A stretch of 60,185 bases of DNA, from the IMG/VR virus record IMGVR_UViG_3300036766_000363, positions 1-60,185 of that record. One strand, written 5' to 3'. Made by a program: the position numbers and the translations under genes. The notes beneath the pieces were generated by a model, which was given only the letters and a program-made list of their open reading frames with translations, was not told where the DNA came from and made no database searches. Shown here one piece after another: positions 165-54,519 of the stretch; positions within the stretch are counted from its first letter, which is position 1; each line of letters starts with the position of its first letter. Source of the stretch: a virus.

Positions 165-218
165 CATCCGTAGTGCCCCGCTTGTCAAGGGGCTACAGAT
201 GCAGTATGTCACATTATG
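165..218 (-). promoter_or_regulatory. Promoter-like intergenic segment before the portal start
   Basis: Read on the minus strand this gap contains CTACTTGACATAATG, then TGACATACTG, then a second TTGACA about 25 nt before the portal ATG. The CTACTTGACATA word recurs upstream of the genes starting at 35173 and 44924. Two overlapping extended -10-like boxes (TGACATAAT, TGACATACT) can be read. Assignment as a promoter is inference from motif recurrence and position. Confidence 0.4.
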
Positions 219-3918: not shown

Positions 3919-4336
3919 AAGCCCGTGCGCCCTGCTTCTTCCTCTCGATAGCACGTTGGCACTCCCGGCAATTGCGCCTTCCCGTCCGCTGGTAGGTATT
4001 CTCTTCGTCGAAAGGATGCCCGTGAATGCAATGTGTCTGTCGGGACTTGCTGGCCGCGATCCCTTCGCCTCGCAAGACGTTCTCCCGACACGTCACTGGC
4101 TCTAGGTGTGTCGGATAAACGCAATTCCGTATCCGGCAAAGGTGATCGAGTTGAAGTCCATCGGGGATCGGGCCGACTAACAGTTCGTAAGCGAAGCGGT
4201 GGGCCTTGACCTGCTTCCCGTCGAGCTTGAACAGCCCGTAGCCAGCGTAGCTTTTCCATGCCGTCCAGAGCCAACAGCCCTCTGTCCTATCGACCTTTGC
4301 CCAGAATCGTTCTTCTATGGTAGGATTGCTTCGCAT
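3917..4336 (-). CDS. HNH homing-type endonuclease
   Basis: 139 aa counted from the ATG at 4336. Features: N-terminal ERFWAKVDRTEGCWLW, AHRFAYELLVGPIP, the HNH core LDHLCRIRNCVYPTHLEPV, then THCIHGHPFDEENTY and a final CRECQR zinc half-site. This is the free-standing phage HNH family (HNH_3/AP2-like) that cuts DNA and spreads by homing. The ATG at 4336 is preferred over 4378 because the paralogue at 13149 aligns from the same Met and shares its leader. It is one of six HNH genes in the window. Confidence 0.88.
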   Translation of the reverse strand: MRSNPTIEERFWAKVDRTEGCWLWTAWKSYAGYGLFKLDGKQVKAHRFAYELLVGPIPDGLQLDHLCRIRNCVYPTHLEPVTCRENVLRGEGIAASKSRQTHCIHGHPFDEENTYQRTGRRNCRECQRAIERKKQGARA

Positions 4337-4362
4337 CGTGAACTCACTTTCTTGGTGCCGTA

Positions 4363-4403
4363 CCCCGGACGCTAACACGTCGCGGGGCCTTTCCCTTAGT
4401 ATA
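4363..4403 (-). promoter_or_regulatory. HNH leader A: extended -10 promoter plus hairpin
   Basis: Minus strand: CGTGGTATACTAAG (TGG + TATACT at 4403-4398) followed by a hairpin 4387-4363 with arms CCCCG and GACG against CGTC and CGGGG, one bulged C, loop TGTTAG. The same promoter, spacing and stem, with a different loop, precede the HNH gene at 13149. This suggests the leader moves or is conserved with the gene and may control its expression. Confidence 0.6.
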
Positions 4404-4902: not shown

Positions 4903-4976
4903 TTCGACGTGGTGTAATGGTAGCACAATTGGCTCTGAACCAATAAGTGGGGGTTCAAATCCTTCCGTCGAAACCA
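4903..4976 (+). tRNA. tRNA-Gln (anticodon CTG), CCA encoded
   Basis: A full cloverleaf is present. Acceptor TTCGACG pairs perfectly with CGTCGAA; the D arm contains GTGTAATGGTAGCAC; the anticodon stem ATTGG/CCAAT holds loop CTCTGAA with anticodon CTG at 4935-4937 reading CAG; the T arm contains GGTTCAAATCC; discriminator A and CCA end at 4976. CAG is common in GC-rich genes, so the tRNA may support late translation. The antisense frames over it (STEGFEPPL..., DLNPHLLVQ...) are the usual tRNA artefacts. Confidence 0.95.
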
Positions 4977-11259: not shown

Positions 11260-11814
11260 ATGCGATCTCATTTTACCTGTTCTGTCCCGAATTGTGCAAG
11301 CCCGTTTTATGGAAGGAGTTTTTGTAATCGTCACTACCAGAGGTGGCGCAAGCATCCTGACCGAGACCCATCCCATGAATCAGTCCCTGCCGAAAGGTTC
11401 TGGCCCAAGGTTGAAAAAACCGAAACGTGTTGGCTGTGGACGGGGGCGCTGTTGGATAGTGGGTACGGATTCTTTTGGGTTGACAATACTCGCCAGGTTG
11501 TGGCCCATCGTTTTGCCTATGAACTTCTTGTCGGCACGATCCCCGAGGGGCTTCAACTCGATCATCTTTGCCGCGTTCGTAATTGCGTCAACCCGAAGCA
11601 CCTAGAACCGGTAACTAATCGTGAAAACGCCCTTCGCAGCGAGTCCTTTTCTGGTCGTAGTGCTCGGCAAACCCACTGTGTTCACGGGCATCCTTTCGAT
11701 GAGGCGAATACCTATATTTGGGTTGGCCGTCCGACCCATCGTCAATGTCGAATCTGCATGAGTTATGCGGGCCGTCGCGCATCCCGCCTCGCCATGTCCT
11801 CCGCGACAACTTGA
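11260..11814 (+). CDS. HNH homing-type endonuclease with N-terminal zinc domain
   Basis: 184 aa. The N-terminus has a Cys/His module (CSVPNCASPFYGRSFCNRHY) also found in the HNH protein at 31234. Then ERFWPKVEKTETCWLWTG, AHRFAYELLVGTIPEG, the core LDHLCRVRNCVNPKHLEPV, THCVHGHPFDEANTY and a final CRICM. Expected to cut double-stranded DNA as a free-standing homing nuclease. Codon use is like its neighbours. Confidence 0.9.
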   Translation: MRSHFTCSVPNCASPFYGRSFCNRHYQRWRKHPDRDPSHESVPAERFWPKVEKTETCWLWTGALLDSGYGFFWVDNTRQVVAHRFAYELLVGTIPEGLQLDHLCRVRNCVNPKHLEPVTNRENALRSESFSGRSARQTHCVHGHPFDEANTYIWVGRPTHRQCRICMSYAGRRASRLAMSSATT

Positions 11815-13071: not shown

Positions 13072-13077
13072 GCATGC

Positions 13078-13122
13078 GTGGTATACTAAGAGAAAGGCCC
13101 CGCGACGTTTCCGCGTCCGGGG
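13078..13122 (+). promoter_or_regulatory. HNH leader B: extended -10 promoter plus hairpin
   Basis: CGTGGTATACTAAG (TATACT at 13082-13087) is followed by the hairpin 13098-13122 with the same stem as leader A at 4363-4403 (CCCCG, GACG against CGTC, CGGGG with one bulged C) but loop TTTCCG. The sequence AGAAAGTGAGTTCACGATGC down to the start codon is also shared. Confidence 0.6.
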
Positions 13123-13148
13123 CACGACACCGAGAAAGTGAGTTCACG

Positions 13149-13592
13149 ATGCAAAGCAATCTTACCACCGAAGAGCGATTCTGGGCAAAGGTTAACAAGA
13201 CGGAAGGCTGTTGGCTGTGGACGGCGACCCTCATGCCAAATGGTTACGGGCAATTCACGGTTGGCGGGAAGAAGATCCTTGTCCACCGTTTCGCCTATGA
13301 ACTGCTCTTCGGCCTGATTCCTGAAGGATTGCAACTTGACCACCTGTGCAGGGTTCGGCATTGTGTGTACCCCGCACACCTAGAGCCAGTTACTCCCCGT
13401 GAGAATGTCCTTCGGGGCGAGACGGTCGCAGCCAGCAATGCTCGAAAGACACACTGTCTTCGAGGCCACCCCTTCGACGAAGTGAACACTTGTCATTGGC
13501 AGTCACGGCCGGGTCGGCGTGATTGCCGGGAGTGCAAGCGCGACCATACTCGTGCGTATCGGGTTAGGCAGGGGGGGGGGGGGGTAAAATGA
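13149..13592 (+). CDS. HNH homing-type endonuclease
   Basis: 147 aa from ATG at 13149. ERFWAKVNKTEGCWLWT, VHRFAYELLFGLIPEG, core LDHLCRVRHCVYPAHLEPV, THCLRGHPFDEVNT and CRECKR match the nuclease at 3917. The C-terminal four glycines are encoded by a 14-G run, and the stop overlaps the start of the recombinase gene. Slippage in the run would change this C-terminus. Confidence 0.88.
   Translation: MQSNLTTEERFWAKVNKTEGCWLWTATLMPNGYGQFTVGGKKILVHRFAYELLFGLIPEGLQLDHLCRVRHCVYPAHLEPVTPRENVLRGETVAASNARKTHCLRGHPFDEVNTCHWQSRPGRRDCRECKRDHTRAYRVRQGGGGVK
13571..13584 (+). repeat. 14-base G homopolymer
   Basis: Fourteen consecutive G lie at the end of the HNH coding region and 4 nt before the ATG of the serine recombinase. 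Such tracts slip in replication and are typical of contingency loci. Here length changes would alter the HNH C-terminus and the spacing or strength of the recombinase ribosome site. Confidence 0.8.
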
Positions 13593-31811: not shown

Positions 31812-33053
31812 GGCACTCCATGGATCACTTGAGCCTATGAACGATTTTAGGACGATCTCGATGTCAAGCAATTCCGTAGAGGTAAAGACGAATGTGTTAT
31901 CCCCGCGCAGGGGCTCCCCGGAGGTCGCGCGGAGGTAAGCCGTCACATCTAGGTTGCTCTGGCTGGCGTTCCACGGCCCACCCAAAGCCGTTGTGCGGTC
32001 GGTGCCATTTATCGTGATGGTTACGCCGGGAGTGGACGGGGCCGACCCTTCTTGGATCGCGGTAAAGGTGAGAGAGTGGGTGTGGGCGGCAACCGAATGA
32101 TCGTGGGCGATAGTGTGTGTGTGGGCAATCGTGTGGGAGTGAGAGATGGTATGAGTGTGCGCAATCGTGTGCGAATGAGAGGATGTGTGGGTGTGCGCTG
32201 AAGCTGCGGTAAAGGTTGTAAAATCAGTTGTGGATGCGCCGGACGCCAGAAACATTCCTAGCACCTTGGCACTGCCCACTGTATAGTACCTTACATCATG
32301 CAGGCCATGTGTATGGCTTGGGCCGGTATGAGTATGCGCGGACTCAATGCTTGTGTTGCCCGTAACAACGTGTGTATGCCCTGTGTCTGGTTCAGCAGAA
32401 GTGGTGCTGTCAGTGGTGGCCGATGTGTGGTTATGGTTAGACCCAGCCCCGGAAGCCCCTGTTCCTGCCGCCTCGGTAGCAAGCCCTGGGTCGGAATAGT
32501 ATTCCCCGACGGTATGGTGATGAACACCATCGGATGAACTGCTGGGCGCATCTGTGCTACTAGACGACGCGCTACTCGCGGAACTTGTAGTGGCATCCGT
32601 TCCAGCGGTAGATGCGCTACTTGATCCGCTGGACGACGCGCTGGATGAACCGCTGGTCTGCCCGCCCCCACTCGCTGCCGTGCTTAGGTTGGCGCGCACT
32701 GCCGCCAGCCGGAAGGTCAGCTTCGCCTGGTACAACTGGGTCGCCAGCGAGTCGTAGTCCACGGTAAAGGTGACGCTGTGGGTGTTGTCGATGGACTGGC
32801 GCAGCGGGCCGTGGACTTCCCGATAGAACCGCTGCTGCCGTGGGTGCGGGTTGTTCTGTGTCCCCCCGTAGACCGGCCCAACGTGGCGGGTCAGCAGTTC
32901 CTCGATGTCCGCCACCCTCCGCGCCATCTGCTGGAACTCTTCCATGTTTACCACAGGGGCGGGCGTAAAGGTTGGCACGTTGAAGTTGTCAAACGTCACC
33001 GGCATCGGGGTCTCGTCAGGCTGGCCGCTTGTGTCTATTCGTCCTCGGGTCAT
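31794..33053 (-). CDS. Tail fibre with HxH metal-binding repeats
   Basis: 419 aa. N-terminal 110 residues carry a virion-attachment-like part; then a Ser/Thr/Ala-rich linker (about 138-178) and repeated His-x-His pairs, including seven in a row at residues about 284-327 (DNA 32073-32203). In phage T4 gp37 such HxH pairs bind iron along a trimeric needle at the fibre tip. C-terminus is a small beta domain. Probably the receptor-binding fibre; the T4-like metal site is inference. Confidence 0.82.
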   Translation of the reverse strand: MTRGRIDTSGQPDETPMPVTFDNFNVPTFTPAPVVNMEEFQQMARRVADIEELLTRHVGPVYGGTQNNPHPRQQRFYREVHGPLRQSIDNTHSVTFTVDYDSLATQLYQAKLTFRLAAVRANLSTAASGGGQTSGSSSASSSGSSSASTAGTDATTSSASSASSSSTDAPSSSSDGVHHHTVGEYYSDPGLATEAAGTGASGAGSNHNHTSATTDSTTSAEPDTGHTHVVTGNTSIESAHTHTGPSHTHGLHDVRYYTVGSAKVLGMFLASGASTTDFTTFTAASAHTHTSSHSHTIAHTHTISHSHTIAHTHTIAHDHSVAAHTHSLTFTAIQEGSAPSTPGVTITINGTDRTTALGGPWNASQSNLDVTAYLRATSGEPLRGDNTFVFTSTELLDIEIVLKSFIGSSDPWSAGIAST

Positions 33054-35173
33054 GGCTGCGCGTACCCCCCGGCGTAATCCACCCTGGTCAGTTCCACCCG
33101 GACAACGCCGCTACTGCCGCCCTTGAAGGCGCGTTCGAGGAAGGAGCGGGTTTCCGTGTACTCGACAGCGGTCACGAGGAACCGGCACTTCCGGCTCTCC
33201 TCGTAGTCAGGGATGCGCCCCTCGATGACGGTGGCCGTGTTCATCCAGTTCCTAAAGAGTCGATGGGTTTCCTTGGCGTCCCGTCCAATAGAGATGCCGT
33301 TCCCATTACGGTCGCGGTTGTCCGCGCGGATGGCGATGGTCACGCGGTCGGTCACGCTCGGGCGGGAATACCCGAAGGCCCATGCCTCTCGTACTTCCGG
33401 CCTGGCTGTACCAGCGGCAGAGGTCAACGCGCCTGTGAACTTGACCTCGAAGAACTGACCGTTTGTGTTGGGGGGGGCGTAGCGGGTGACCGACTGGAAG
33501 TCCTCGGTGAGGGCAATCGGGGCGACGCCTCCGCCCTCCTGCGTGTCGAGCATGTTGTAGTAGGTCCCGCCGTCTGCGGCGTAATCGAGGGTCAGGGTCT
33601 CGCCAGCAGAGGAGTAATCAAGTACTGTACTAACCCCGACAAGGGTGTGAAGCAGGCCGATACCCTCATCCGGGGCGAAGGGGCCAGTCTCAAGGGACAT
33701 CGCCGTGCCGAAGTCGTAGCCGTCGTCGTCCACATCACGCCCGCCGTTCCGCCCTACCTCTATATAGACAGCGTTGTTTCCGTAGCCCGCGACGAGGGAC
33801 GGCATCGTGCCGTAGTTGTTCATGGCGAGGAAGTAGCCCTTGGTCGAGGCGGCCAACCGGCACCACTCGTGGTAGATGTACTCTTTCTGCGTGGCCCCCG
33901 TCTCGTCCTTGACCATCTTGATGATCACCGTGTTATTCGCGGTCGTATCTTCGTCCGTCACAAGGAGGAAGATGCTCTCGCCCCATTCGACCCCACCGCG
34001 TACCCACATCCGATAGTCGGGGCGGTTGGACTTCTCAGGGCCGCGCAACTGCGCCCTCCCCGGAGTGATCTTGTAAAGGCCGGTCGATGACGGGCACCAC
34101 AGCGCCCCATGTGCGACAAAGTTTCCCTTGCCGTTGTCGGCGTGGGGCATCCGCGCAAGCTGGGGAACCTGGTTGAAGAACTTGGCCTGGTCGTCCGGGG
34201 CGTAGACGCCATCGGCCTTGAACACCCACGGCACCCCGCCGTAGTCGGTAATCCTGTTCACGGAGTAGGTCGTGTCGCCAGCGGAGTAGGCACTTGTGCC
34301 AGAGGGCGCCCATGAAGTCAGCGTGTTCGGAGCAGTCAAGCAGTTAGAGATTCGGTTCTTCGTCTCGGCTCGGTAGAGCTTATTCCCCACCACTCCGAGG
34401 GCGATGGCGTAGGTTGCGTCGCTGGCCTGTGTCCACGTCCCCTGTGCCGACCATGCATTCCCATTGCCAGGGTTCGACCCGCCCGACCACGATGCCCCGG
34501 TAAAGACGGTAGCCGTGTTCGACGTGACTACCATCGTCTTGGAGTTACATGTAACCGTGGCCCCGATGTAAGCGTCGATGGTGAGGGCGAGACGGGTGTC
34601 CGTGAGGGTCGTGTTGGCCGTGGAGACGGCGGCGTTCGCAGTGCCCGAGATGTTCGCCCCGATAGACCGCTTCCAGATTTTCTCTGTCTCTCCCATCGCC
34701 ACAACCAGTTCGTTGTTGAACACGGCGGCATCGACACACGCCTTGCTTGCGCCGAAGTCCTTGTCCTCGAAGACGGTCTGCGAGCCGTTCTCGGCGTACA
34801 TATACCTGCCACCGAGGTTAAACAACTGGTTGTCGAAGGGGATAGACTTGGGGGGCGTGGTAGCGTTGGTCAGCGTGAGCGTGTTTAGTTTCGGAGGAAA
34901 GAGCAGCAGCCCCTCGTTACTCGCGTCAGCGTTGGCCTTGCTGTACCCGCCACCACGCCGGAGCCGGTCAGGGCCTAGTCCCCACGTCCACGGGTGGAGC
35001 GGTACACGCCAGCGAACCCTCGGGTCAGACGGCTCCCATGGGCGCGTCTCGACGGCAAAGCCGCGTCCGCCCTGGCCGGTAGGCATCACCGTAAAGGGGT
35101 GCTTGCCATCATTTAGTGGACCCCCGCGCCCGGAGGGGTCAATGAGATAGAGGGACTGTCGGTCTTCTGCCAT
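33050..35173 (-). CDS. Large beta-rich virion protein (tail nozzle/propeller-like)
   Basis: 707 aa. Repeated short beta-strand phrases with kinase-free propeller character (FNNELVVAMGETEKIWKRS, VVGNKLYRAETKNRIS, GLYKITPGRAQLRG) and a C-terminal domain (VTIAIRADNRDRNGNGISIG) often seen in tail-tube or nozzle proteins. Starts at ATG 35173 directly after the TTGACATA word. It lies between the fibre and the plus-strand RNA island. Tail role is inferred from position and composition. Confidence 0.7.
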   Translation of the reverse strand: MAEDRQSLYLIDPSGRGGPLNDGKHPFTVMPTGQGGRGFAVETRPWEPSDPRVRWRVPLHPWTWGLGPDRLRRGGGYSKANADASNEGLLLFPPKLNTLTLTNATTPPKSIPFDNQLFNLGGRYMYAENGSQTVFEDKDFGASKACVDAAVFNNELVVAMGETEKIWKRSIGANISGTANAAVSTANTTLTDTRLALTIDAYIGATVTCNSKTMVVTSNTATVFTGASWSGGSNPGNGNAWSAQGTWTQASDATYAIALGVVGNKLYRAETKNRISNCLTAPNTLTSWAPSGTSAYSAGDTTYSVNRITDYGGVPWVFKADGVYAPDDQAKFFNQVPQLARMPHADNGKGNFVAHGALWCPSSTGLYKITPGRAQLRGPEKSNRPDYRMWVRGGVEWGESIFLLVTDEDTTANNTVIIKMVKDETGATQKEYIYHEWCRLAASTKGYFLAMNNYGTMPSLVAGYGNNAVYIEVGRNGGRDVDDDGYDFGTAMSLETGPFAPDEGIGLLHTLVGVSTVLDYSSAGETLTLDYAADGGTYYNMLDTQEGGGVAPIALTEDFQSVTRYAPPNTNGQFFEVKFTGALTSAAGTARPEVREAWAFGYSRPSVTDRVTIAIRADNRDRNGNGISIGRDAKETHRLFRNWMNTATVIEGRIPDYEESRKCRFLVTAVEYTETRSFLERAFKGGSSGVVRVELTRVDYAGGYAQP

Positions 35174-35209
35174 TATGTCAAGTAGAAGTATACCGCAACT
35201 AGGGGTTGC
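35174..35209 (-). promoter_or_regulatory. Late promoter-like motif before the 707-aa gene
   Basis: Minus strand: a GCAAC/GTTGC hairpin (35195-35209) is followed by GCGGTATACTTCTACTTGACATAATG. The 20-base word from GTATACT to TTGACATA differs by one base from that upstream of 44924. TATACT fits a -10, giving a transcript that begins a few bases before the ATG. The plus-strand RNA begins just beyond. Confidence 0.5.
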
Positions 35210-35225
35210 ATACTGTGACCTTAAG

Positions 35226-35515
35226 TGCTAAGGTGATTTCGGTTTAGCAGGACGGACCAGCATTAGCTCAGGGCCTTAGAGCACCCGGACTTAAGCTGGG
35301 GGCCGGAGGGATGGCAACCTTCCATGTTGGGTATCCTGCGAACTAAGGAACTGCGGCAGCATCGTCAGAGATGCCCGGTGATGGCTCGGTGATAGGTAAA
35401 GCGGTCTAACTGAGCCAGGCTTAGTTTCAGCCTGAAATGAAACAACGGGTGCCGACCGCCTAATAACATGGCACAAGCCGGGGTGAGAAGGAACCCGGCC
35501 CGCAGTTCTTTCTTT
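35226..35515 (+). ncRNA. Candidate large structured RNA with tRNA-like domain and pseudoknot
   Basis: Predicted by hand pairing. Outer stem GCAGGA (35247-35252)/TCCTGC (35334-35339) encloses a cloverleaf at 35257-35330. A second domain is closed by the 9-bp helix GAACTGCGG (35348-35356)/CCGCAGTTC (35500-35508), and contains hairpin GCATC/GATGC (35359-35374), a stem at 35373-35377/35446-35450, a pseudoknot made by GGCTC/GAGCC (35383-35387/35412-35416) and GCGGTC/GACCGC (35401-35406/35454-35459), hairpin CAGGCT/AGCCTG (35416-35434) and GCCGGG/CCCGGC (35477-35499). The G-U pairs are only valid on the plus strand. It is the leader of three small plus-strand genes. I do not recognise the family. 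Confidence 0.7.
35257..35330 (+). tRNA. tRNA-like cloverleaf, anticodon UUA, probably not a normal tRNA
   Basis: Acceptor CCAGCAT/ATGTTGG (7 bp, one G-U), U8-A9, D arm GCTC/GAGC with AGGGCCTTA loop (A14, G18-G19-like and A21 present), A26, anticodon stem CCCGG/CTGGG with loop ACTTAAG, and a T-like arm GGAGGG/CCTTCC. But position 33 is C, the T loop is ATGGCAA instead of TTCRANY, and there is no CCA. Read literally, anticodon UUA would pair with stop codon UAA. More likely a tRNA-derived structural module of the RNA. Confidence 0.45.
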
Positions 35516-35528
35516 ATGGAGGAAGCAG

Positions 35529-35681
35529 ATGTTCGGACGGAAGAAATCATGCAAACATTGTTGGCACTGGGTTTCCTGTCCAGAACGCAGCGACGGACAT
35601 GAAATCTGTTGCTTCTGCAATGAGCGATTGTGCTACGCCTGTTACAATGCGGAAAAGGTTCACGGGCCGTTTAAGCCGTGA
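35529..35681 (+). CDS. Cysteine-rich zinc mini-protein, 50 aa
   Basis: ATG at 35529 with GGAGGAAGC directly after the structured RNA. CKHCWHWVSC and ICCFCNERLCYACY give eight Cys/His ligands. TGA at 35679-35681 overlaps the GTG of the next gene (GTGA). Opposite strand to the surrounding virion genes. Possibly a regulator acting with the RNA. Confidence 0.75.
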   Translation: MFGRKKSCKHCWHWVSCPERSDGHEICCFCNERLCYACYNAEKVHGPFKP

Positions 35682-35866
35682 ATGACAGCGGCATTGACCA
35701 GGAGTCGTGGAACAGGTACGTCGAAGGGCGAATGCGAGTATGGAGGGAACGCGCCTTTCAAGAAGAACTGACGACGTTTCAACAGTGGATAGCAAAGATG
35801 AGTAAAGGCTTGACCGAGGAACAACTGGACAGAGCCGAAAGATACCTTCGGCGCGATGCGCCCTGA
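35678..35866 (+). CDS. Hypothetical helical protein, 62 aa
   Basis: GTG at 35678 (GTGA overlap). Predominantly helical and charged (WNRYVEGRMRVWRERAFQEE, GLTEEQLDRAERYLRRD). Part of the plus-strand mini-operon. Function unknown. Confidence 0.7.
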   Translation: MNDSGIDQESWNRYVEGRMRVWRERAFQEELTTFQQWIAKMSKGLTEEQLDRAERYLRRDAP

Positions 35867-35909: not shown

Positions 35910-36038
35910 ATGCCGCCGGGGCAAGCCTGCTTTGAGTGCGCCTGTCGTGCCGTAGCTGAATGGCGAGCGGCTAGTGCCGCGTTACCCCAAAGGTCCGGTC
36001 CAAAGCCCCGCCGTAAAGCCCCCAGGGGCTCTGGCTAG
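35910..36038 (+). CDS. Cysteine-containing basic mini-protein, 42 aa
   Basis: ATG at 35910 with GCGGAGAATAC upstream; TAG at 36036-36038. ACFECACRAVAEWRAAS then a basic tail (PKPRRKAPRG). It overlaps the 3' end of the convergent 452-aa virion gene by 68 nt, which is unusual here. Third and least certain gene of the island. Confidence 0.45.
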   Translation: MPPGQACFECACRAVAEWRAASAALPQRSGPKPRRKAPRGSG

Positions 36039-37329
36039 TTTCCTCTGCCGCCACCCTTCGCGCCTGTTTCTTCATCTCTGCTTCGTTCCGTGCCGTCCAC
36101 CGTGCCACCTGTCGCTCAAGGAATGATTCGTCCAGTGAGTTGGCGCCGGGGAAGGCGGCGATCTGGTCGTACAGTTTAAAGGCCAACCGCGCGTTCATCC
36201 AGTTCGCGTCCACATGCTTCGTGTCCGTGTTGTCATTTGAGAAGGCAACCTCGTTCCGTGTGCCCTTGATGTAGAGCGGGTCGTTGATCGTGCCCTGTCG
36301 GGCCACCGCACGGAACCCACGCCCCATCCCATCGTCCATCACGTCCCACTTGCCATCGACCCGTTCCCCACGGAAGTCGCCAACCATCACGTCCGTACCG
36401 TAGGTGTTGGGCGTGAGCCGGTAGATCCCCTTCACCTGGTCGGGGTGCTTCACCCACCACGGGAGGGCGATGCTCTGAGCCTCCGTGGAATACATCACCA
36501 CGTCGTCCCAGAGGCTCGTCACGTTGTTCTCCGCGTTCGCAAGGCGAACGGTCATCCGGTTGCAGGTAGCGGGCGTGGTAAACGTGAACCAGAGCCTATG
36601 CCAGTGCTGCCTCGTCGTCGTCTTCGTCGTTATAGCTGCGGAATTTGTGGAGTCGTAGGCTATGAGCGTCGGGGTTGTCGAAGCGGCGCTGGCGCGGACC
36701 AGTGCGGAAAGATGGTACAGCCTCCCCGGTTCTACCGTGACCACCGCGCTCTCGGAGTACCCTGCCGCGCTCGTCGTGAGTACGCTTAGCCATCTCTTTC
36801 CATTTCCCGGTATTCCCGTAGTAGCTTTTGTAACCGTGGCGTTGGTCCCAGCCCAGTCGGTCGTATGGGTCTGTTCAAAATCAAAATCAGCGATCTCGGA
36901 GAGCATGGACTGAGCGGGCAGGTAGCACTCGTCCGTGAGGATCTGGTCGATGGTATCGAGGACATCCTGCGGGTGGGGGAAGCGAAATACTTGGTACTCG
37001 TCAGTAGACACAGGGGAAGCGGAAAACACGGGGCTAACGGTCAGCCTGCCGTTCCCCGGTTCATACTTCGTAATCGGTCGAATCTCTGTCTCAGGGGCAG
37101 CGGCAGCACCACCGGCATCCTTGCCAATCCTGAGCCATGCCCCGTTCCACATCTCCTCGGAATACTGGCTGGACTGGAGCCGGGTCGTGTCAATGAGGGT
37201 GGAAGTAGAGCCGCCCGTAGCCGTGCCATACGTGCCGAACCCACCCTCGCGCAGGACGCGCTTGATGATGGAACTGCGGGTAAGCAATTCCAATCCGGTC
37301 GTTGTGGGGGATGTCCCAAGTAAGCTCAT
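35971..37329 (-). CDS. Virion structural protein with jelly-roll module, 452 aa
   Basis: ATG at 37329 overlaps the HNH stop (ATGA). Middle region reads as a carbohydrate-binding or galactose-binding jelly-roll (SVLTTSAAGYSESAVVTVEP, RLYHLSALVRASAAS, MTVRLANAENNVTSLWDDVV). Flanks are head-tail connector-like (LELLTRSSIIKRVLREGG). Late virion gene, probably tail or adaptor. Confidence 0.72.
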   Translation of the reverse strand: MSLLGTSPTTTGLELLTRSSIIKRVLREGGFGTYGTATGGSTSTLIDTTRLQSSQYSEEMWNGAWLRIGKDAGGAAAAPETEIRPITKYEPGNGRLTVSPVFSASPVSTDEYQVFRFPHPQDVLDTIDQILTDECYLPAQSMLSEIADFDFEQTHTTDWAGTNATVTKATTGIPGNGKRWLSVLTTSAAGYSESAVVTVEPGRLYHLSALVRASAASTTPTLIAYDSTNSAAITTKTTTRQHWHRLWFTFTTPATCNRMTVRLANAENNVTSLWDDVVMYSTEAQSIALPWWVKHPDQVKGIYRLTPNTYGTDVMVGDFRGERVDGKWDVMDDGMGRGFRAVARQGTINDPLYIKGTRNEVAFSNDNTDTKHVDANWMNARLAFKLYDQIAAFPGANSLDESFLERQVARWTARNEAEMKKQARRVAAEETSQSPWGLYGGALDRTFGVTRH

Positions 37330-37754
37330 ACAGAAACCCCCGCCGATTTCCAATAGTATTTACGACTGTTAGCGCGAAGACAGGCGCGACACTTTCTTTC
37401 GTTTTTATAAAAGTAGATATTCTCAATGCCATACTTATGACCGGACGGACAATGCGTTTTGGCTTTTTGTCTGGCCCCTTGAAGCGGGCTTCTCAACATA
37501 TTAACGTAGTGAGTTACTGGTTCCAAATGGGAATAATTAACACAACTACGATTTCTGCACAAATGATCAAGCTCTAGTCCCGAAGGAACTAAACCAATGA
37601 ACAATTCATAGGCGAACCGATGTGCCGAAATTATTCTCTTATTGGATCTAAACTTTCCATATCCGTTCTTGTCCTTACACCCCGTCCACAGCCAGCAATC
37701 ACCAGATTTATCAACCTTTGCCCAAAAGCGTTCAGTAGTATTCATCATACTCAC
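37326..37754 (-). CDS. HNH homing-type endonuclease
   Basis: 142 aa, GTG at 37754 (ATG 37748 or 37745 possible). RFWAKVDKSGDCWLWTG, AHRFAYELFIGLVPSG, core LDHLCRNRSCVNYSHLEPV, THCPSGHKYGIENIY, CRACLR. It is the most AT-rich of the six, with many AAA/AAT codons unlike flanking genes, a sign of recent transfer. Fits exactly between two virion genes by overlapping both. Confidence 0.88.
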   Translation of the reverse strand: MSMMNTTERFWAKVDKSGDCWLWTGCKDKNGYGKFRSNKRIISAHRFAYELFIGLVPSGLELDHLCRNRSCVNYSHLEPVTHYVNMLRSPLQGARQKAKTHCPSGHKYGIENIYFYKNERKCRACLRANSRKYYWKSAGVSV

Positions 37755-41502: not shown

Positions 41503-41656
41503 TCTTCTTGCCAGCCTTCATCATATCGCTAAGTCCCATTGACTTCATTTTACCACCGCACTTAGGGCAAGTGTCGTCGTCAGTTTCAGGGACGCCCTTC
41601 TTGTCTTTGTCGGCGTCCTTGCTCTTATAGCCACACTTGCCACATTTCTTCATCAT
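41495..41656 (-). CDS. Zinc-ribbon mini-protein, 53 aa
   Basis: ATG at 41656 (second ATG at 41653), TAG at 41495-41497. MMKKCGKCGYKSKDADKDKK then DDDTCPKCGGKM: a classical CxxC-x20-CxxC zinc ribbon with a basic linker. It is one of several in the window. The 41657-41746 gap holds nothing that I can recognise. Confidence 0.75.
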   Translation of the reverse strand: MMKKCGKCGYKSKDADKDKKGVPETDDDTCPKCGGKMKSMGLSDMMKAGKKNG

Positions 41657-41746
41657 GGATGGGACTTCCTTGTTGGGTTTGGGGTGGCCGGGGGAGGGCG
41701 AGGGAGTCGGCGCTTCTGGCGCTCATGCCCCCGCCCCCTTGATTAA

Positions 41747-44979: not shown

Positions 44980-45038
44980 CACAGTATGTCAAGTAGTAGT
45001 ATACGGTAGATCCGCACACAACTACAGTTGTCAAGCCC
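44980..45038 (-). promoter_or_regulatory. Late promoter-like region
   Basis: Minus strand: CCCCTTGACA then the palindrome ACAACTAC...AGTTGT (about 45018-45032), then CCGTATACTACTACTTGACATACTG. The GTATACTNCTACTTGACATA word is shared with the region before 35173. TATACT as -10 would start the 272-aa gene operon. Confidence 0.5.
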
Positions 45039-45947: not shown

Positions 45948-46491
45948 GGTCTCTTTTCTCCTTAATCGCTGTCTGCAACGCTGCTGGCAGCAATTCAAAT
46001 GGCATGTGACCTTCGTCCAGTCCCGGCCTATCCTCTTCAATCGCCATCGCCCTGCCATCAATAAGCAGTGCGGGCTGGAGGAAATGCAGGACTGCAACCC
46101 AGTCCATTAGTCCTTCTCCCAATCGAGCATCGTGATCGAACGCGGTGCCCATGTTGGTAGCGTCGTCTACGTCCCCCTGGAAGGGAGACAGTTCAAAACG
46201 GAGGGGCAAAGCCTCCCCGGTTTTCCCACGGAGAATCCGCGCGCAACACGCCTGCTCCGGCAGGGGCCGGTTCTTTGGGACAACCTCTAGAAACTTCCAG
46301 TGGCGTACCCGTTCATACAGGTCGATGGCATGCTTGATTGTGGGGTAGGCGTAGATAGCAAGAAGCGCCTGTTGCATCTTCTCGTCCTTGCCCGTGAGCA
46401 TTTCGGCAGGGGCGATGAACCGCTCCCTTACCTCTGTCGGCAACCATTGGGTATCTGGCACCACGTTGAGCCAGCTACGTTCGTCTGCCAA
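45931..46491 (-). CDS. Virion or assembly protein, 186 aa
   Basis: Start taken as TTG 46491 with AAAGGAAC upstream (the TTG at 46506 is an alternative). Mixed acidic protein (LNVVPDTQWLPTEVRERFIA, GEALPLRFELSPFQGDVDDA). No family recognised. Ends inside the start of the 302-aa gene. Confidence 0.65.
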   Translation of the reverse strand: MADERSWLNVVPDTQWLPTEVRERFIAPAEMLTGKDEKMQQALLAIYAYPTIKHAIDLYERVRHWKFLEVVPKNRPLPEQACCARILRGKTGEALPLRFELSPFQGDVDDATNMGTAFDHDARLGEGLMDWVAVLHFLQPALLIDGRAMAIEEDRPGLDEGHMPFELLPAALQTAIKEKRDRGRRI

Positions 46492-46512
46492 ACCAGTTCC
46501 TTTCAAACATCA

Positions 46513-46532
46513 GGGCCGAGACATCTCAGCCC
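46513..46532. terminator. Strong hairpin downstream of the capsid gene
   Basis: GGGCCGAGA and TCTCAGCCC pair (9 bp with one G-U) around CA. No T run follows. It precedes the 186-aa gene start and could slow transcription or protect the upstream capsid mRNA from 3' decay. Confidence 0.4.
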
Positions 46533-46570
46533 CAATGCTGCTAATTGTCTATGATTTAACAATCCTACAC

Positions 46571-46596
46571 GGTGTGGCAATAAACATCACCACACC
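46571..46596. terminator. Hairpin after the major capsid gene
   Basis: GGTGTGG (46571-46577) pairs with CCACACC (46590-46596). It lies 12 nt after the capsid stop. Position fits a partial terminator or mRNA-stabilising hairpin that gives the capsid gene its high expression relative to downstream genes. Confidence 0.45.
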
Positions 46597-46607
46597 AGAC
46601 ATTATTG

Positions 46608-47486
46608 TCAAACTCCCTTTAGCCAGCAGACGGCCTCGTCAGTCGCCGTAATATTCTCCGGCGTCTCACTGTAGCGGTCAACCTCAGAATAGCCGTACAC
46701 CTTCTCCGCAGCCACCACTTCCTTGAGGCCAAGGGCGATGGATTCGTTCCAAATCTTCGTGTCGAGGGCAACGATCAGCGCGATGCTGGACTTGCTGACA
46801 AGGCCGTTATCGTGCTGCCCGGCAGCCGGTGACGTGATCAGGTTCGACTTAACGATTGGGGAGCCCATGAACATCTGGATGTCACCAGAGGTACTGGACT
46901 TCACGGCGTTGGCGTCGCCCCGGTATGACGCATGGGTGAAGCTGTCCATCTTGTGGAGAGCAATCCGCTGCGCGGGGGAGAAGAACCAGGTGGCGCTTTC
47001 CATTCCATAACCGGAGTCGTCGAGGTACTGGACCGCGCGAAGCAGGTTATCGAAGGTCAATTCGACACCGAGGGTGCCGACGCTCTGGGAGAACGAGGCG
47101 AAGAGGGCCGCAAGGTTCACATCGGTTGCGCGCGCAAACGCATAACCGATCTTGCTGGTCATCTTGCCCTTGAGGTCGTGGTTGTTCAACACGTTCACAA
47201 TGTTTTCCACTGCGAACGCGGTGCCCTGGTGGACGTTGATTGAGATGGTCTGCTCGGTGTCGGTGTATGCCTTGGGCGTCAGGTCTGACCCGGCGTTCTT
47301 GGTCTCCACCGTAAGGTTAGGAATACGCGCCTTGCGGTACGTGTCCCCAAACCCCTTGAACTCCCAACTACGATCGACTCGCCCTGCGATTTCGATCTTG
47401 AATTCCTCGGCAGACAGCACATCCGTCATAAAGACATCAGGGATGTGTTTGTCGGCGGTCGTGACATTCATGTTGCTACTGGCCAA
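46608..47486 (-). CDS. Major capsid protein
   Basis: 292 aa, TTG at 47486 with AAGGA upstream. N-arm, then EIAGRVDRSWEFKGFGDTYR and a P-domain-like stretch (PNLTVETKNAGSDLTPKAYT), a long helix (VNVLNNHDLKGKMTSKIGYA, FARATDVNLAALFASF), ATWFFSPAQRIALHKMDSFT and a C-terminal strand (GYSEVDRYSETPENITATDE). Length and order fit HK97-fold coats of short-tailed phages. It lies directly after the scaffold-like gene and before strong hairpins. Evidence is pattern plus position. Confidence 0.82.
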   Translation of the reverse strand: MASSNMNVTTADKHIPDVFMTDVLSAEEFKIEIAGRVDRSWEFKGFGDTYRKARIPNLTVETKNAGSDLTPKAYTDTEQTISINVHQGTAFAVENIVNVLNNHDLKGKMTSKIGYAFARATDVNLAALFASFSQSVGTLGVELTFDNLLRAVQYLDDSGYGMESATWFFSPAQRIALHKMDSFTHASYRGDANAVKSSTSGDIQMFMGSPIVKSNLITSPAAGQHDNGLVSKSSIALIVALDTKIWNESIALGLKEVVAAEKVYGYSEVDRYSETPENITATDEAVCWLKGV

Positions 47487-48548: not shown

Positions 48549-48624
48549 TGTAAGTACCTCCTGAGTACGCAGTTACTATAACATGACTTATGTCAAGCAG
48601 GTAGTTAACCGAGTTGTCAAGGGG
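48549..48624 (-). promoter_or_regulatory. Capsid operon promoter region
   Basis: Minus strand: CCCCTTGACA, then CTGCTTGACATAAGTCATGTTATAGTAAC. TGTTATAGT is an extended -10 (TGT + TATAGT) lying about 30 nt before the AGGAGG site. The paired TTGACA elements also precede 44924 and 159. It would drive scaffold and capsid at high level. Confidence 0.55.
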
Positions 48625-51600
48625 CTAGTCGGTCTCGAACGACCCGCCGTAGATTTCGAACATCTGGTCGTAAGTATAAGAGTCGTTGAGCCAAGCAAGT
48701 TCCCTCGGGTGAGCCTGCTTATACATAAAGTAATCCCCATTCAGGTGGGTAAAGCCGAAACTGTCTGCCTTGCGTCCATCGGCAATGGACTGCGCGGCAA
48801 GCTGCGCCGCGTGGATCTTGATAACGTCCTCTATTTGGGCAGGGGGAATTCCTTCGTTCTCAAGGATGACCATGGCAGATTTAGCCCAGTCCATCTTTTC
48901 AAATGACTTCGCCAGTGCAGGCGCATCCTTTGGATTACGCTTTACGCCGACCAATACTTCTAGCTTCTCAAGCTCAGTCTCTTCAACGCCAGAGGTAAGT
49001 CCGTCGTAATGCGGCATCTTCTCGCGGTCAAAGTAGCCATCCCCGCCAAGCTTCTGCATAGCCTTGATGTACGCCTTGCGCTCGGGAGACTTGTTGGTTG
49101 AGAACACGTCGTTCACGTAGGACAACGCAACCCCGCCGTTCTCCTTGAGCCACGCATCCTGCTTAACCCTGGTGGCGTCGTAGTCGGGATTACCATCCTC
49201 CGCCTCAACAAAGGTGTCGATGTAGGAAGCCACCCAGTAATCCAGCGAACCCTTGGGCGGGTCGCTGCGAATAAATCCTTCCATCTTCCCTTCGGCCTTT
49301 ACCCTGGCAAGATCGTTGATGCGCGAACCATCGTCCTTCCACTTACCCACAAGTTCTTTGCCTGATCTGAACTGAGCATCATTGGCCGCGCTCTTCCCGT
49401 CCTTGTCGGCCTTGATGGCTCGCAATTCCTCGGAGACCTTGCCATGAACCTCGGGCTTCTTGTCGGGGTTCTTCTCGGCAAAGATGGCCTTATAGAGCGG
49501 GTCGTTCGCAGGACGATCCTCTTTCGGATACTCCTGCCCGTCACTCAACTTCGGCTGCCAATTCTTATAGCTTTCTTTAATGGCAATGTCGTAGTTGTTC
49601 TTAGTCTGAACATTCACGCCAATACCAAGGTAGGAAGGAAGTGTCCCAAGTGCCTGCCTGAGGCCCCATTCCTTGTACGCCTCCGCCATTTCTACTGGCG
49701 AAAGAGGGCCAATAAGTCCCTTCACAATGCTGAGGGGGTCACGCTTAACCGGGTCGTTGTTGAAGTCACGACCTGACGTTTGATCCCATATCATGGACGG
49801 GACGGGGGCCGCCTTGCCTCGAAGGAACCTAGCGGCAGGTGAGACCGCAGGGCCGTACGTCTTCCCCCCAATACTAGGGCCAACACGATCTATGTCGTAA
49901 TTTCGCCCACTGCTGCTCGAATACTTTTCTGCGGTTATGGTTTGAATAAGCATCTTGGCAATCTGGATATTCCCACCCCATGGGTCATAGCTCTGTGGCC
50001 CAATATTTATATTGCCGAACGTCCCACTGTTGGGATTAAGATCGACCTTCCCTCCTAGCTTCCCATCCGAAACCTCGTACATCATCTGCATGAAGCCCAG
50101 CATGGCGGCTGTCCCAGCGAAATACGTGACGAGTTCTCGAATCGCTTCTTTGCGAAGGTACTGGTCCGTAATGGCAAGTTTCGTTGCGCGGGCAAGAAAC
50201 TCGGGACGAGAAATCACAAAGCGAGGAGCAAAGAAAATCATATTCAAGAGCGTATTCTGTGACTTGAAGAACTCCTTCAACGAGCCACTACCAGTGTTAG
50301 CGGCAATCATCTTGGCAAGATCCTTTGCCCGCTTCGCCCCCTCATCCCCGGACCTGGCCGCAACGGGCAAATTGTCCCAAACACTGTCGAACCAGTAGGC
50401 GCGAACCGTATTCATAAAGACTGCGGCCTGCCTGCCCGAGGAGGCTATTATCTCTCCAGGGTTAAGGCTGTTTAGCGAAACTCGATGCCCCCTGATGTCC
50501 ACGCCAGCGGCGGTAAGTCCCTTCTTAATAGTCGAACCAATCTTAGGAAGATTACCGAGGCTCATCTTCTCTATCCACCCGGCAGAGACCCCTTCGTTTG
50601 AAAACTCACCAGCACCGCCATGAATATCATTCATCGGCAGTCCAGCATCCTTGGCTATACCGGCATTAGGGCGAGTGTTGATCTCATCCATCGCAGCCTT
50701 GGCGCCGTCCACATCGGCCCATGCAGGCCAGCCCTTCTTCACGCCATCCCACCAAATAGCCGGGTGGGCATAGAGCGCGCCAGCGCCCTGTCGAAGAAGC
50801 AGGGAAATGTCGTATGCTGCCTTCGCGCCCTTTGTCCCAATGACCCCTTGGGCCATCCAGTGCCCGGACTTTTGCGTAAGCCTGATTCCCCAATTTCGCT
50901 CCGCCAGTTCTACGGCCTTGTCAGTGTCGATGGGCGCAGGTGTGGGTTCGGGAGGCAAGACGCGCCTTTCGCTTCGAGCGGCCGGGTGACTCTTGCGATA
51001 TTCCTGCACCCTACCATCCGCTTCATTGGCACGAGCCCGCGCCTCACTGGCCCACGTCCGCGCGTCGCTGGCCCCGAGCATCGACGATTGGGCATTTTGT
51101 GACGAATACTTGGACGACCTCTTGGCTGCGCGTTCAAGATCCGTCGCTGCTCGTTCTAGTTTTGTTGCCTCGGCATCAAGACGACGCCACTCATCAAGAA
51201 GGGTTACATACGTGGGTTCGGGCGTAGCGCCCGCCCCCGCATCCACCTTCGGTCGGAACTGGGCGTCCAGATCGTTGAGCTTCTTAAGTTCTGCGTCAGC
51301 AGCCAGCCGAAGATTGGCAGCCTCGGCGGCCGCGCCCTGGTCGGCGGCCCCAGCCAACTTCTGGTCCCATGGCTTCCTGCGCTCAGCCGCAGCCTTAAGC
51401 GTTTCCGTCACCCTCGGCCTACGATCTCTCTTAGTCGCCTCCCATTCACCCCGCGACTGACCAACGGCTCGCCGCTCCGCTTCACTGGCCGCTTCGTCCG
51501 CAGCCTTCCATGAAGCCAGCGCCTCATCCTTCTGTGAGAGCAGGTCAACGGGGGTGGACGGGCCATTGTCAAGAGCGTCGGTAACCCCTCGACCCGGAAG

Positions 51601-54519
51601 AGACATCCCCGTTTCGCCAATCAATGGCGGTTTACCCGGCAAACTTGCCTCGCCAAGATCCAGCGGCATCGACGTGCCAGGGTACCGCGGCGCAATCAGT
51701 CCCTTGGTCGAGCTAATGCCAAGGACTTCTTCCAGCAACTTCACTTCATCAGCGTCCAACGCCTCCCCCGCCTCAGCCTTTTTAATTGCATCCTTGGCCC
51801 GCACTCCCTCATCAGGCTTTAACGTTTCGCCCTCAACAAGTTCATCCACCCGCTTGATCGCCTCTGCATGTCCAACTCCGACAACGCGAGCCTCGACGCG
51901 CCCGGCCGCCGACGTAGGCGGAGCCTCAAGCCCTAGTACCCTGGCATAGACCCCCGTTTCCCATCCAGTAAGAGCAGGGCTTGGGCCACTCAGTTTTACA
52001 AAAAGTCTCTCAGCATCATGCAATTCAAGGTCGCTTATCCGCCCAGACTCATTGGCCTCGACAGCCTTCGCCCAGAACAAATCGTAACTCTTGGGATCAA
52101 TCGGGGTTAGCGTCGTTGGCTCCATGCCGCCCGTGGCCCCCGACCTCAAGAAAGCAACATATTCTCGGCTGCCCTTTTCAAGACTGCCGTCCGCAACCAA
52201 CCGATCGGCCTCGGCCCTTCGTGCCCTGATTCCCGCGCCTTGCCGCGCCTTTAGTTCCTTTAGCCTCTCGGCCGCTTCGCCAGAAGATTGCCGTCCGCCT
52301 TGCTCGCTAAAGGCGCGGAGAAGGTCGGCCTCTGCATCATGCGGGGGCTCGGGCGGTTCAGGCGTGTTACTCACACGCGCCTTACGCGGTGGCTTCCCGC
52401 CATTGCCGTTTCCGGCACGACTGCCTTCAATAATATCGTCGGCAATGCTCTCGCCAAGATCGCGGTTCGCAACCGCAATCTCTTCCGGCGTTGCGTCCTG
52501 GCCCTTTGCCTTAACCTCTTCCACCTTCTTTACAGAACTGACAACCGCTTCTTCCGCCGGGGTCGCCGTGCCCTGTGTAACCTTCTCATCCAGGGCAGAG
52601 TAGCGAGGGATAGATGGCTCTTCAAGATCCAATCGCTCTATCCCGTCAACTGAGTCTACAAAGTTGTCCCACGCCTCTGTTCGCGCTTCCGAATAGTCTG
52701 CGGCATCCTCAAAATCAGAACGTTCAATTCCACGATACTCATCAAGTGCATCACGCGCCTCGCCAACGTCATGCCCGCTCGACCCAAGTGAATCCAGGTC
52801 TTTTTCTGCTCGCGTAGAATTACGACTCTTTGAGGATGTCCATCTTGAGGCCACTGCATCCACAGGATCTTCATCAAAAACCGGAGGCTTAGTGCCGGAA
52901 ATGCGCGGCTCAGCGCGCGCAACAGGCGCTTCACGGGCAACGCCCGCCGTAGGTTCCGGCGTGACGGGGCGGGGCTCGGGCACATCCATCCCCCGCGACG
53001 CTGGCCCCGTGGGGGTGGCAAGGGGCTGCATCTTTATTGTCTCACCCTCCGCCGCCATCCCCGCCGTCGTCCTGCCGCCTGCCTCATCCGCAATCGCCCT
53101 GAACTCATCGGGCTTATTACGCACCGCTGCCCCGACCTGCTCGGGGGGCATGCCTAGTTCGTCAACCGCAGCAAGAAGGGAGACTTGCGCTTCTGGGGTA
53201 AGGGATTCGAGGGGAGCTATGCTTCCCGGCGGCCCTGCCGCTTCGAGGGGATCTACTATCGGCTTCTTCGGGGCAGACATACCAGCCGACACCGGCCCCA
53301 TAACTCTCGCAGGCTCGTTGGCCCACGCATCCAATTTAAGGGCAGCATTGTCAGCGCCCCGGATAGTGGACTTCAAGCCGCGTCCAATTGCGGGACTAAC
53401 CGCATCGACAAGCCCTGCGCCAGCCGCCGCACCACCGCCGCCCACAAACCCAGAACCAAGCACAAGCCCGGCACGCACCTTGGCGTCGTATTCAGATGGG
53501 ACAAATGGGATGTCTTCGGGCAACCTCGCGCCAGCCTCAGTAGACGCAGCCCGCGCCCCTGCGTTAATCGCCAATTCCGTCCCGAGACGGGCCGCTGGGT
53601 TTCGTTCTGCGCCAAGTGCCGTACCCAGCACCCCCGCCACCTTCGCGGTTCTCAACCCCATCCCCGCCTTGGCGGCTATCCCAAACGGGGCAATGGTCAG
53701 CGGGTCAAACAAAGAGGCAGCAACTGCCTCCCCAACGGCTCCCCCTGGCACATCGGTCGTTTCATGCCCCGTAATGCCCTCGAAGTTCTTGGCACCAGCA
53801 TTCATCGCGGTGTCGAGGAAGCTGCCCTCTTGCGGCATCCACCCGCCTTCAGGCGGCTTCGTTACCCAGTCCTTCGTCTTACCCCACCAGCCCTTCGACT
53901 GTTCTTCTTCTGGGGGAAGCTCAGACCACTGCTGAAATTGCTCCCTTTGAGTCCTATCAGATACGTTGGCGGGTTCCCACCATAGCCCCAAAGGGCCACC
54001 TGCAACCTGTGACTGAGGAATGGCATTATCCCCACCAACTGGTCTCCAATTGGGAACCTCTAGTTCGTGTTGAGCCTGCTGTTCCGGCGTTTCCCACGAC
54101 AGCCCCTGGTCGCTGAAGCCCGGCGTGTCCCTGAAACTGAACGTGTCCCAGGGCGACGAGGCTTGGTTCCAATCCTCATATGGGCCATCTCCACCCTGCG
54201 TAGCAAGTAGCGACTGCTCCTCTGGTGTCGGAGTGGGCAAGCCCCAATCCATGCCCTGATCGGGCAGCACGGGGGCACTTGCACCACCCCACGTATTCTC
54301 GTCGAACCCCGTCCCTGCGTAGGGGTCGCTTGAAATGGCTTCCTGCCACGGCAACGGCGACTCGGATACGCCCGAGGTTACGGGCGAACCAATGTTCTCC
54401 GAGGGAAGCGGGGGCAACGAGGATTCCCAGAGGTCGGTAAGATACCGAAACTCGTCTTCCTTCTTCTTGCCCTTGGGCACGAACTCGAAGTCGCTGGTCA
54501 GGTCATAAATGAGCGCCAC
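48625..54519 (-). CDS. Giant internal virion / ejection protein, 1964 aa
   Basis: Largest gene here. N-terminal 400 residues are Trp/Pro/Gly-rich then membrane-like (AGALVDA, AAKAGMGLRTAKVAGVLG); residues 450-1200 are helical and charged with low-complexity segments; residues about 1250-1700 resemble the conserved terminal region of large polyvalent phage proteins (IAANTGSGSLKEFFKSQNTL, NMIFFAPRFVISRPEFLARA, AVSPAARFLRGKAAPVPSMI). Such proteins are packed in the virion and injected with the DNA to make a channel in short-tailed phages. The C-terminal 250 aa are lysine/Asp-rich. No lytic transglycosylase motif seen. Confidence 0.75.
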   Translation of the reverse strand: MALIYDLTSDFEFVPKGKKKEDEFRYLTDLWESSLPPLPSENIGSPVTSGVSESPLPWQEAISSDPYAGTGFDENTWGGASAPVLPDQGMDWGLPTPTPEEQSLLATQGGDGPYEDWNQASSPWDTFSFRDTPGFSDQGLSWETPEQQAQHELEVPNWRPVGGDNAIPQSQVAGGPLGLWWEPANVSDRTQREQFQQWSELPPEEEQSKGWWGKTKDWVTKPPEGGWMPQEGSFLDTAMNAGAKNFEGITGHETTDVPGGAVGEAVAASLFDPLTIAPFGIAAKAGMGLRTAKVAGVLGTALGAERNPAARLGTELAINAGARAASTEAGARLPEDIPFVPSEYDAKVRAGLVLGSGFVGGGGAAAGAGLVDAVSPAIGRGLKSTIRGADNAALKLDAWANEPARVMGPVSAGMSAPKKPIVDPLEAAGPPGSIAPLESLTPEAQVSLLAAVDELGMPPEQVGAAVRNKPDEFRAIADEAGGRTTAGMAAEGETIKMQPLATPTGPASRGMDVPEPRPVTPEPTAGVAREAPVARAEPRISGTKPPVFDEDPVDAVASRWTSSKSRNSTRAEKDLDSLGSSGHDVGEARDALDEYRGIERSDFEDAADYSEARTEAWDNFVDSVDGIERLDLEEPSIPRYSALDEKVTQGTATPAEEAVVSSVKKVEEVKAKGQDATPEEIAVANRDLGESIADDIIEGSRAGNGNGGKPPRKARVSNTPEPPEPPHDAEADLLRAFSEQGGRQSSGEAAERLKELKARQGAGIRARRAEADRLVADGSLEKGSREYVAFLRSGATGGMEPTTLTPIDPKSYDLFWAKAVEANESGRISDLELHDAERLFVKLSGPSPALTGWETGVYARVLGLEAPPTSAAGRVEARVVGVGHAEAIKRVDELVEGETLKPDEGVRAKDAIKKAEAGEALDADEVKLLEEVLGISSTKGLIAPRYPGTSMPLDLGEASLPGKPPLIGETGMSLPGRGVTDALDNGPSTPVDLLSQKDEALASWKAADEAASEAERRAVGQSRGEWEATKRDRRPRVTETLKAAAERRKPWDQKLAGAADQGAAAEAANLRLAADAELKKLNDLDAQFRPKVDAGAGATPEPTYVTLLDEWRRLDAEATKLERAATDLERAAKRSSKYSSQNAQSSMLGASDARTWASEARARANEADGRVQEYRKSHPAARSERRVLPPEPTPAPIDTDKAVELAERNWGIRLTQKSGHWMAQGVIGTKGAKAAYDISLLLRQGAGALYAHPAIWWDGVKKGWPAWADVDGAKAAMDEINTRPNAGIAKDAGLPMNDIHGGAGEFSNEGVSAGWIEKMSLGNLPKIGSTIKKGLTAAGVDIRGHRVSLNSLNPGEIIASSGRQAAVFMNTVRAYWFDSVWDNLPVAARSGDEGAKRAKDLAKMIAANTGSGSLKEFFKSQNTLLNMIFFAPRFVISRPEFLARATKLAITDQYLRKEAIRELVTYFAGTAAMLGFMQMMYEVSDGKLGGKVDLNPNSGTFGNINIGPQSYDPWGGNIQIAKMLIQTITAEKYSSSSGRNYDIDRVGPSIGGKTYGPAVSPAARFLRGKAAPVPSMIWDQTSGRDFNNDPVKRDPLSIVKGLIGPLSPVEMAEAYKEWGLRQALGTLPSYLGIGVNVQTKNNYDIAIKESYKNWQPKLSDGQEYPKEDRPANDPLYKAIFAEKNPDKKPEVHGKVSEELRAIKADKDGKSAANDAQFRSGKELVGKWKDDGSRINDLARVKAEGKMEGFIRSDPPKGSLDYWVASYIDTFVEAEDGNPDYDATRVKQDAWLKENGGVALSYVNDVFSTNKSPERKAYIKAMQKLGGDGYFDREKMPHYDGLTSGVEETELEKLEVLVGVKRNPKDAPALAKSFEKMDWAKSAMVILENEGIPPAQIEDVIKIHAAQLAAQSIADGRKADSFGFTHLNGDYFMYKQAHPRELAWLNDSYTYDQMFEIYGGSFETD

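Follow-up and report, generated by a model that had tools for sequence, protein, structure and literature searches.

A plus-strand structured RNA with a tRNA-like domain, tentatively a leader of two small genes, in the late region of an uncultured phage

An uncultured phage (IMG/VR record IMGVR_UViG_3300036766_000363, of which we analyzed positions 1 to 60,185, a stretch of 60,185 bases called here the window) carries, in a gap between its minus-strand late genes, a segment for which our data support a structured RNA, read from the plus strand, that resembles no family in Rfam. Our best explanation, which we hold tentatively, is that this segment is the structured leader (5' UTR), with a tRNA-like domain, of a two-gene mini-operon. 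The 5' part of the segment is a complete tRNA-shaped cloverleaf that has a canonical D-arm but lacks three features of functional tRNAs, the T-loop, U33 and CCA. The 3' part is a second domain, domain 2, whose 12-bp closing helix ends 6 nt ahead of the Shine-Dalgarno site of ORF50, the first small gene. The features are listed in Table 1. All helices drawn in the original prediction for this region were found in the sequence where it had placed them.

Table 1. Features of the structured segment and its surroundings, in window positions
Feature	Position	Strand	Basis or remark
Whole structured segment, two domains	35226-35511	+	Intergenic; sequence and folding z
Domain 1, outer stem around cloverleaf	35247-35339	+	MFE fold of the 93-nt stretch
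tRNA-like cloverleaf, 74 nt	35257-35330	+	Geometry scan, tRNA covariance model, D-arm motif
Domain 2, junction closed by P1	35345-35511	+	All pairs standard; z -4.25
P1	35345-35356/35500-35511	+	12 bp
P2	35359-35374	+	Helix of domain 2
P3	35383-35416	+	Helix of domain 2
P4	35417-35433	+	Helix of domain 2
P5	35449-35474	+	Helix of domain 2
P6	35477-35499	+	Helix of domain 2
Possible loop-loop (kissing) helix, loops of P3 and P5 (GCGGTC/GACCGC)	35401-35406/35454-35459	+	Complementarity real, expected by chance
Pyrimidine tract CTTTCTT	35508-35514	+	Ensemble computation
Shine-Dalgarno site GGAGGA	35518-35523	+	Ensemble computation
ORF50, 50 aa, Cys-rich (CxxC-type, zinc-knuckle-like)	35529-35681	+	Well-spaced Shine-Dalgarno site
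ORF62, 62 aa, GTG start	35678-35866	+	4-nt overlap with the preceding stop
Repeated late-operon element TATACTTCTACTTGACATA	35174-35192	-	Directly before the ATG of the 707-aa gene

The segment sits in an 800-base gap between the minus-strand genes 35971-37353 and 33050-35173. Other minus-strand genes of the window include the terminase (1766-3280(-)) and the major head protein (46608-47486(-)). None of the frames of the gap, on either strand, has a score like that of the long genes of the phage, ORF 35678-35866 coming near, and neither strand of the intergenic region scores as coding. The plus strand of the segment folds better (MFE -111.9 kcal/mol, z -2.18) than the minus strand (MFE -95.4 kcal/mol, z -1.35), which agrees with the earlier argument that the G-U pairs favour the plus strand; the drawn structure has several of these, and they are mismatches if read on the opposite strand. 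When 180-nt windows were scanned blindly, the 40 best did not include this region. The lowest folding z of the entire window (-6.45) lies at 46441-46620(-), at the 3' end of the major head protein gene, and perhaps marks a terminator or processing site. Both strands of a structured stretch between convergent ORFs (41531-41667) likewise have low z values, -4.38 and -3.73.

The cloverleaf is non-random and is the strongest part of the segment. The predicted outer stem, GCAGGA (35247-35252) with TCCTGC (35334-35339), was confirmed in the sequence, and the MFE structure of the 93-nt stretch is exactly the cloverleaf within this stem, at an unexceptional energy (z -1.45). Order and size (74 nt) are those of tRNA (RF00005), as are the 7-bp acceptor (35257-35263/35324-35330) followed by the two-nucleotide linker UA (U8-A9), the D arm (35266-35282) of 4 bp and a 9-nt loop with TAGCTCAG...TTAGAGCA, the one-nucleotide linker A26, the anticodon-type arm (35284-35300) of 5 bp with the 7-nt loop ACUUAAG, and the variable region of 4 nt (35301-35304). 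In contrast to tRNA, the T-type arm (35305-35323) has a 6-bp stem and the 7-nt loop AUGGCAA instead of UUCRANY, the D loop has GGGCC, position 33 is C instead of U, and there is no CCA. Because the T-loop consensus, U33 and CCA are missing, 35257-35330 is a tRNA-like structure and not a tRNA. GCC in the D loop and GGC in the T-type loop could replace the usual elbow contact, a complementarity of three bases that is so short that chance would yield it. A split tRNA with an intron was rejected, as no 3' half of a T-arm was seen by eye downstream.

This domain was assessed in several ways. First, the two strands of the window together contain exactly two perfect cloverleaves of tRNA geometry, the tRNA-Gln at 4903 and 35257-35330, against 6 in total from 400 shuffled windows. 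Furthermore, the D arm is canonical, as in a standard tRNA, and its motif TAGCTCAG-N4-TTAGAGCA has a single occurrence in the window and none in the shuffles (chance 0.00). The original prediction had spoken simply of a cloverleaf; with its tRNA-like geometry and D-arm sequence the element is better than was described. Finally, a covariance model that we made for tRNA, using the tRNA-Gln of the window and 13 tRNAs from L197, gives the cloverleaf as the second-best match of the window (13.1 bits, versus 67.3 for the real tRNA-Gln), with an E value of 0.17 for 60 kb and about 0.001 for a 290-base region fixed beforehand. It is not recognized as a tRNA by ARAGORN, nor matched by the Rfam tRNA model at E 10.

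Domain 2 is plausible but not proven, because its boundary (35345-35511) was picked after the fact, it is only the fifth of the 80 strand-regions of the window that are bounded by a 9-bp helix, and it lies outside the 40 best windows of the blind scan. The 9-bp helix reported earlier (35348-35356/35500-35508) is indeed perfect, and A-U, A-U and G-U pairs lengthen it to the 12 bp of P1; taken alone it is weak evidence, with 6.6% of shuffles and 8.5% of genome windows giving the like. Cut at the closing helix, domain 2 has a z of -4.25 on the plus strand, with 0 shuffles as good, and of -2.76 on the minus strand. Its MFE structure keeps P1, P2 and most of P3, with alternatives in place of P4-P6. 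The two helices of the predicted pseudoknot (35383-35387/35412-35416 with 35401-35406/35454-35459) are complementary and interlocked, but at least one pair of this kind is present in 84% of dinucleotide shuffles and 86% of genome windows, and we rejected the pseudoknot as evidence of structure. The original prediction had seen a real structured stretch, in which it overrated the pseudoknot and underrated the cloverleaf. Domain 2 also contains, at 35437-35466(+), ATGAAACAACGGGTGCCGACCGCC and then TAATAA inside hairpin P5, recalling the tmRNA tag hairpin; this stretch has no Shine-Dalgarno site and no tmRNA model match.

The first of the main rivals of the leader is a captured, decayed tRNA gene (pseudo-tRNA) beside a stretch that folds no better than chance, the whole being without present function. 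Retention of a canonical D-arm with loss of T-loop and anticodon features would be expected of such a relic, as would the low score with the tRNA model, domain 2 is unexceptional among comparable regions, and the z of the whole segment is only -2.18. However, random decay normally breaks stems, while here 22 of 22 cloverleaf pairs are intact, the T-type stem has grown to 6 bp and an outer 6-bp stem has been added; the z of domain 2 also speaks against it. We consider this reading possible, though on balance unlikely.

The leader reading draws on the position of domain 2 relative to the small genes. GGAGGA starts six bases past P1, ahead of the ATG of ORF50. The pyrimidine tract (35508-35514), which overlaps the 3' strand of P1, can pair with 35519-35525 in a 7-bp hairpin that masks the Shine-Dalgarno site. 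Ensembles were computed for six 3' ends: opening the site takes 1.3-3.0 kcal/mol if the leader is free to fold, 4.9-5.8 kcal/mol if the 5' strand of P1 is made unavailable and 4.7-6.4 kcal/mol if the leader is removed, values that depend on a low-complexity tract and on nearest-neighbour energies without the pseudoknot. By these computations the site is easier to open with domain 2 folded because P1 takes part of the masking tract, which suggests that folding of domain 2 may favour translation. In the proposed mechanism, P1 would hold part of the pyrimidine tract otherwise paired with the Shine-Dalgarno site, leaving the start site easier to open by computation, and domain 2 would serve the small ORFs as a folding-dependent 'on' switch or as an insulator. 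A tRNA-recognizing factor may dock on the tRNA-like domain, candidates being a tRNA-binding protein, RNase P or another processing enzyme, and an aminoacyl-tRNA synthetase; once docked, the factor would process, stabilize or regulate the transcript.

Three small plus-strand genes had been announced downstream. Two are plausible, 35529-35681 with its GGAGGA and 35678-35866 with its 4-nt overlap, but the third (35910-36038) is weak. From their arrangement, translational coupling of ORF50 and ORF62 is likely. No Pfam or PHROGs match and no relatives were found for ORF50 and ORF62, and the codon use of the small ORFs is uninformative. Upstream, no sigma-70-type promoter was found by the thresholds of the tool, and no plus-strand terminator was found between the RNA and the ORFs. 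We count in favour of the leader the non-coding gap, the cloverleaf statistics, the z of domain 2, the Shine-Dalgarno opening costs and the arrangement of ORF50 and ORF62. Against it we count the absence of a homologue, of a sigma-70-type promoter and of relatives of the ORFs, the uninformative codon use, the four other regions of the window that match domain 2 in stability, and the low complexity of the tract on which the masking depends.

The repeated element at 35174-35192(-) (TATACTWCTACTTGACATA, core CTACTTGACATA) is 19 bases long and has a second exact copy at 44985-45003(-); its core is also found at 215-226(-) and, with one mismatch, at 48589-48600(-), a recurrence with a chance of 0.01-0.05. 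All copies are on the minus strand ahead of late genes, several with a second CTTGACA close by, and the element is probably the late promoter of the phage or an operator/control site. Since it resembles such a site, the plus-strand unit would stand back-to-back with a fresh start of late transcription. Elsewhere in the window, a 1964-aa ORF (48625-54519(-)) has no Pfam or PHROGs match, like most large proteins of this phage, a deeply diverged lineage. There are at least five HNH_3 genes, and near-identical inverted duplications were found within and around them (4005-4390 with 13077-13206 and 11551-11683; 4016 with 31354).

The second main rival is a free-standing phage non-coding RNA with a function in trans, perhaps through a kissing-loop complex like those of the ornate RNAs, the small ORFs being separate. 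It would account for the two-domain fold and the complementary loops of P3 and P5, and for the lack of an Rfam class; a tRNA association is likewise known from the phage GOLLD and ROOL RNAs (PMC12286853). However, there is no plus-strand terminator between the RNA and the ORFs, the loop complementarity is expected by chance, and the last helix is followed, at no more than 18 nt, by a Shine-Dalgarno site and an ORF. We find this reading rather improbable.

A tRNA decoy, in which the domain diverts a host anticodon nuclease, a tRNA-sensing defence or a tRNA-modifying enzyme during infection, would explain a tRNA shape without the parts that translation needs, and tRNAs are commonly carried by phages. 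However, the T-loop and U33, needed by many tRNA enzymes, are missing and no defence-related neighbour was identified, which makes a decoy very unlikely.

Known RNA classes were compared with Rfam. At the gathering score nothing but the tRNA-Gln was matched in the window, and at E up to 10 the whole segment matched nothing and its sub-stretches gave just unrelated matches at the level of chance. The original prediction had not recognized a group I intron, RNase P, tmRNA or riboswitch here, and the covariance search that it proposed bears this out, with no meaningful match even at E 10. The segment could also be a highly diverged group I intron, tmRNA, bacterial Y RNA or cobalamin-type riboswitch: the TAATAA stop pair in hairpin P5 recalls the tmRNA tag hairpin, and the tRNA-like domain recalls tmRNA and bacterial Y RNA. 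This reading is highly improbable given that Rfam, searched to E 10 on sub-stretches, has no match for the classes named (intron models included, and the cobalamin-type riboswitch at permissive thresholds), that ARAGORN finds no tmRNA and the tmRNA model nothing at E 10 in the record, and that no TROVE (Ro60) or reverse transcriptase gene was found in the record, which is possibly incomplete. Bacterial Y RNA (YrlA) shares a tRNA-like domain closed by an additional outer stem, but here there is an extra 167-nt domain. HEARO/OMEGA RNAs were also rejected: they are structured RNAs, and this genome is rich in HNH genes, but there is no Rfam match, and the HNH genes are short, free-standing HNH_3 genes of the homing type that are encoded on the opposite strand. 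The genes next to the segment are not HNH genes, which leaves it without a neighbouring nuclease gene of the IscB/IsrB type.

The original prediction had also raised a possible relation to GOLLD-, ROOL- or HEARO-like RNAs, which is not supported. Neither the gathering threshold nor a limit of E 10 yields a match to a GOLLD or ROOL covariance model. Both are RNAs of phages, frequently located near tRNA islands, and form kissing-loop cages; tRNA association is a theme among them, and many GOLLD RNAs exceed 800 nt (PMC12286853). The present RNA is likewise phage-encoded and multi-helix, with complementary loops and an association with tRNA sequence, but it has about 285 nt, lies outside a tRNA island and leads straight into ORFs. 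The resemblance is limited to this theme.

Relatives of the segment were searched for in several collections. Blastn of the region found no relative among phages and only one 39-nt chance match among plasmids. Exact-pattern scans, with a 20-mer in IMG/VR and a 22-mer in GTDB contigs, gave no match. An IMG/VR loop pattern with free kissing nucleotides hit 107 stretches, none with the fold and all by chance, and the single match of a D-arm plus T-loop pattern is an ordinary tRNA-Met. The flanking 707-aa and 460-aa proteins, the terminase and ORF50 have no close relative in IMG/VR, nor has the 707-aa protein in GTDB contigs, and the terminase profile finds only relatives of about 25% identity. 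A single-sequence covariance model of domain 2 had 0 matches in 47 distantly related phage records with such terminases and none convincing over 100 other loci (best E 0.38). The large collections were scanned by exact patterns only, and exact seeds and single-sequence models would miss diverged relatives. Because the patterns and models tried found no second member, covariation gives no verdict, and the 'new RNA class' of the original prediction is unproven. That this is the first of a new class of phage regulatory RNAs, joining a tRNA-mimicking cloverleaf to a pseudoknotted multi-helix switch that governs translation of small takeover proteins in the late region, seems to us improbable.

In their way of working, the nearest analogues of the proposed leader are tRNA-mimicking leaders and riboswitch-type expression platforms. 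Like the thrS operator of E. coli and like T-box and riboswitch leaders, it would be a structured 5' leader located immediately ahead of a Shine-Dalgarno site and containing an element of tRNA shape, or a closing helix whose formation is in competition with start-site masking; unlike them, it has no synthetase or amino-acid gene downstream and no sequence match, and its mechanism is the one we infer. Well-known cases of tRNA mimicry come from eukaryotic RNA viruses and from a small number of bacterial leaders. Should the segment be no more than a decayed tRNA next to a stable stretch, there is nothing unusual about it. If the leader reading is true, a tRNA-shaped domain at the start of an mRNA leader of a DNA phage would put tRNA mimicry in a new setting, and one would have to ask which host tRNA enzyme or defence recognizes this domain.
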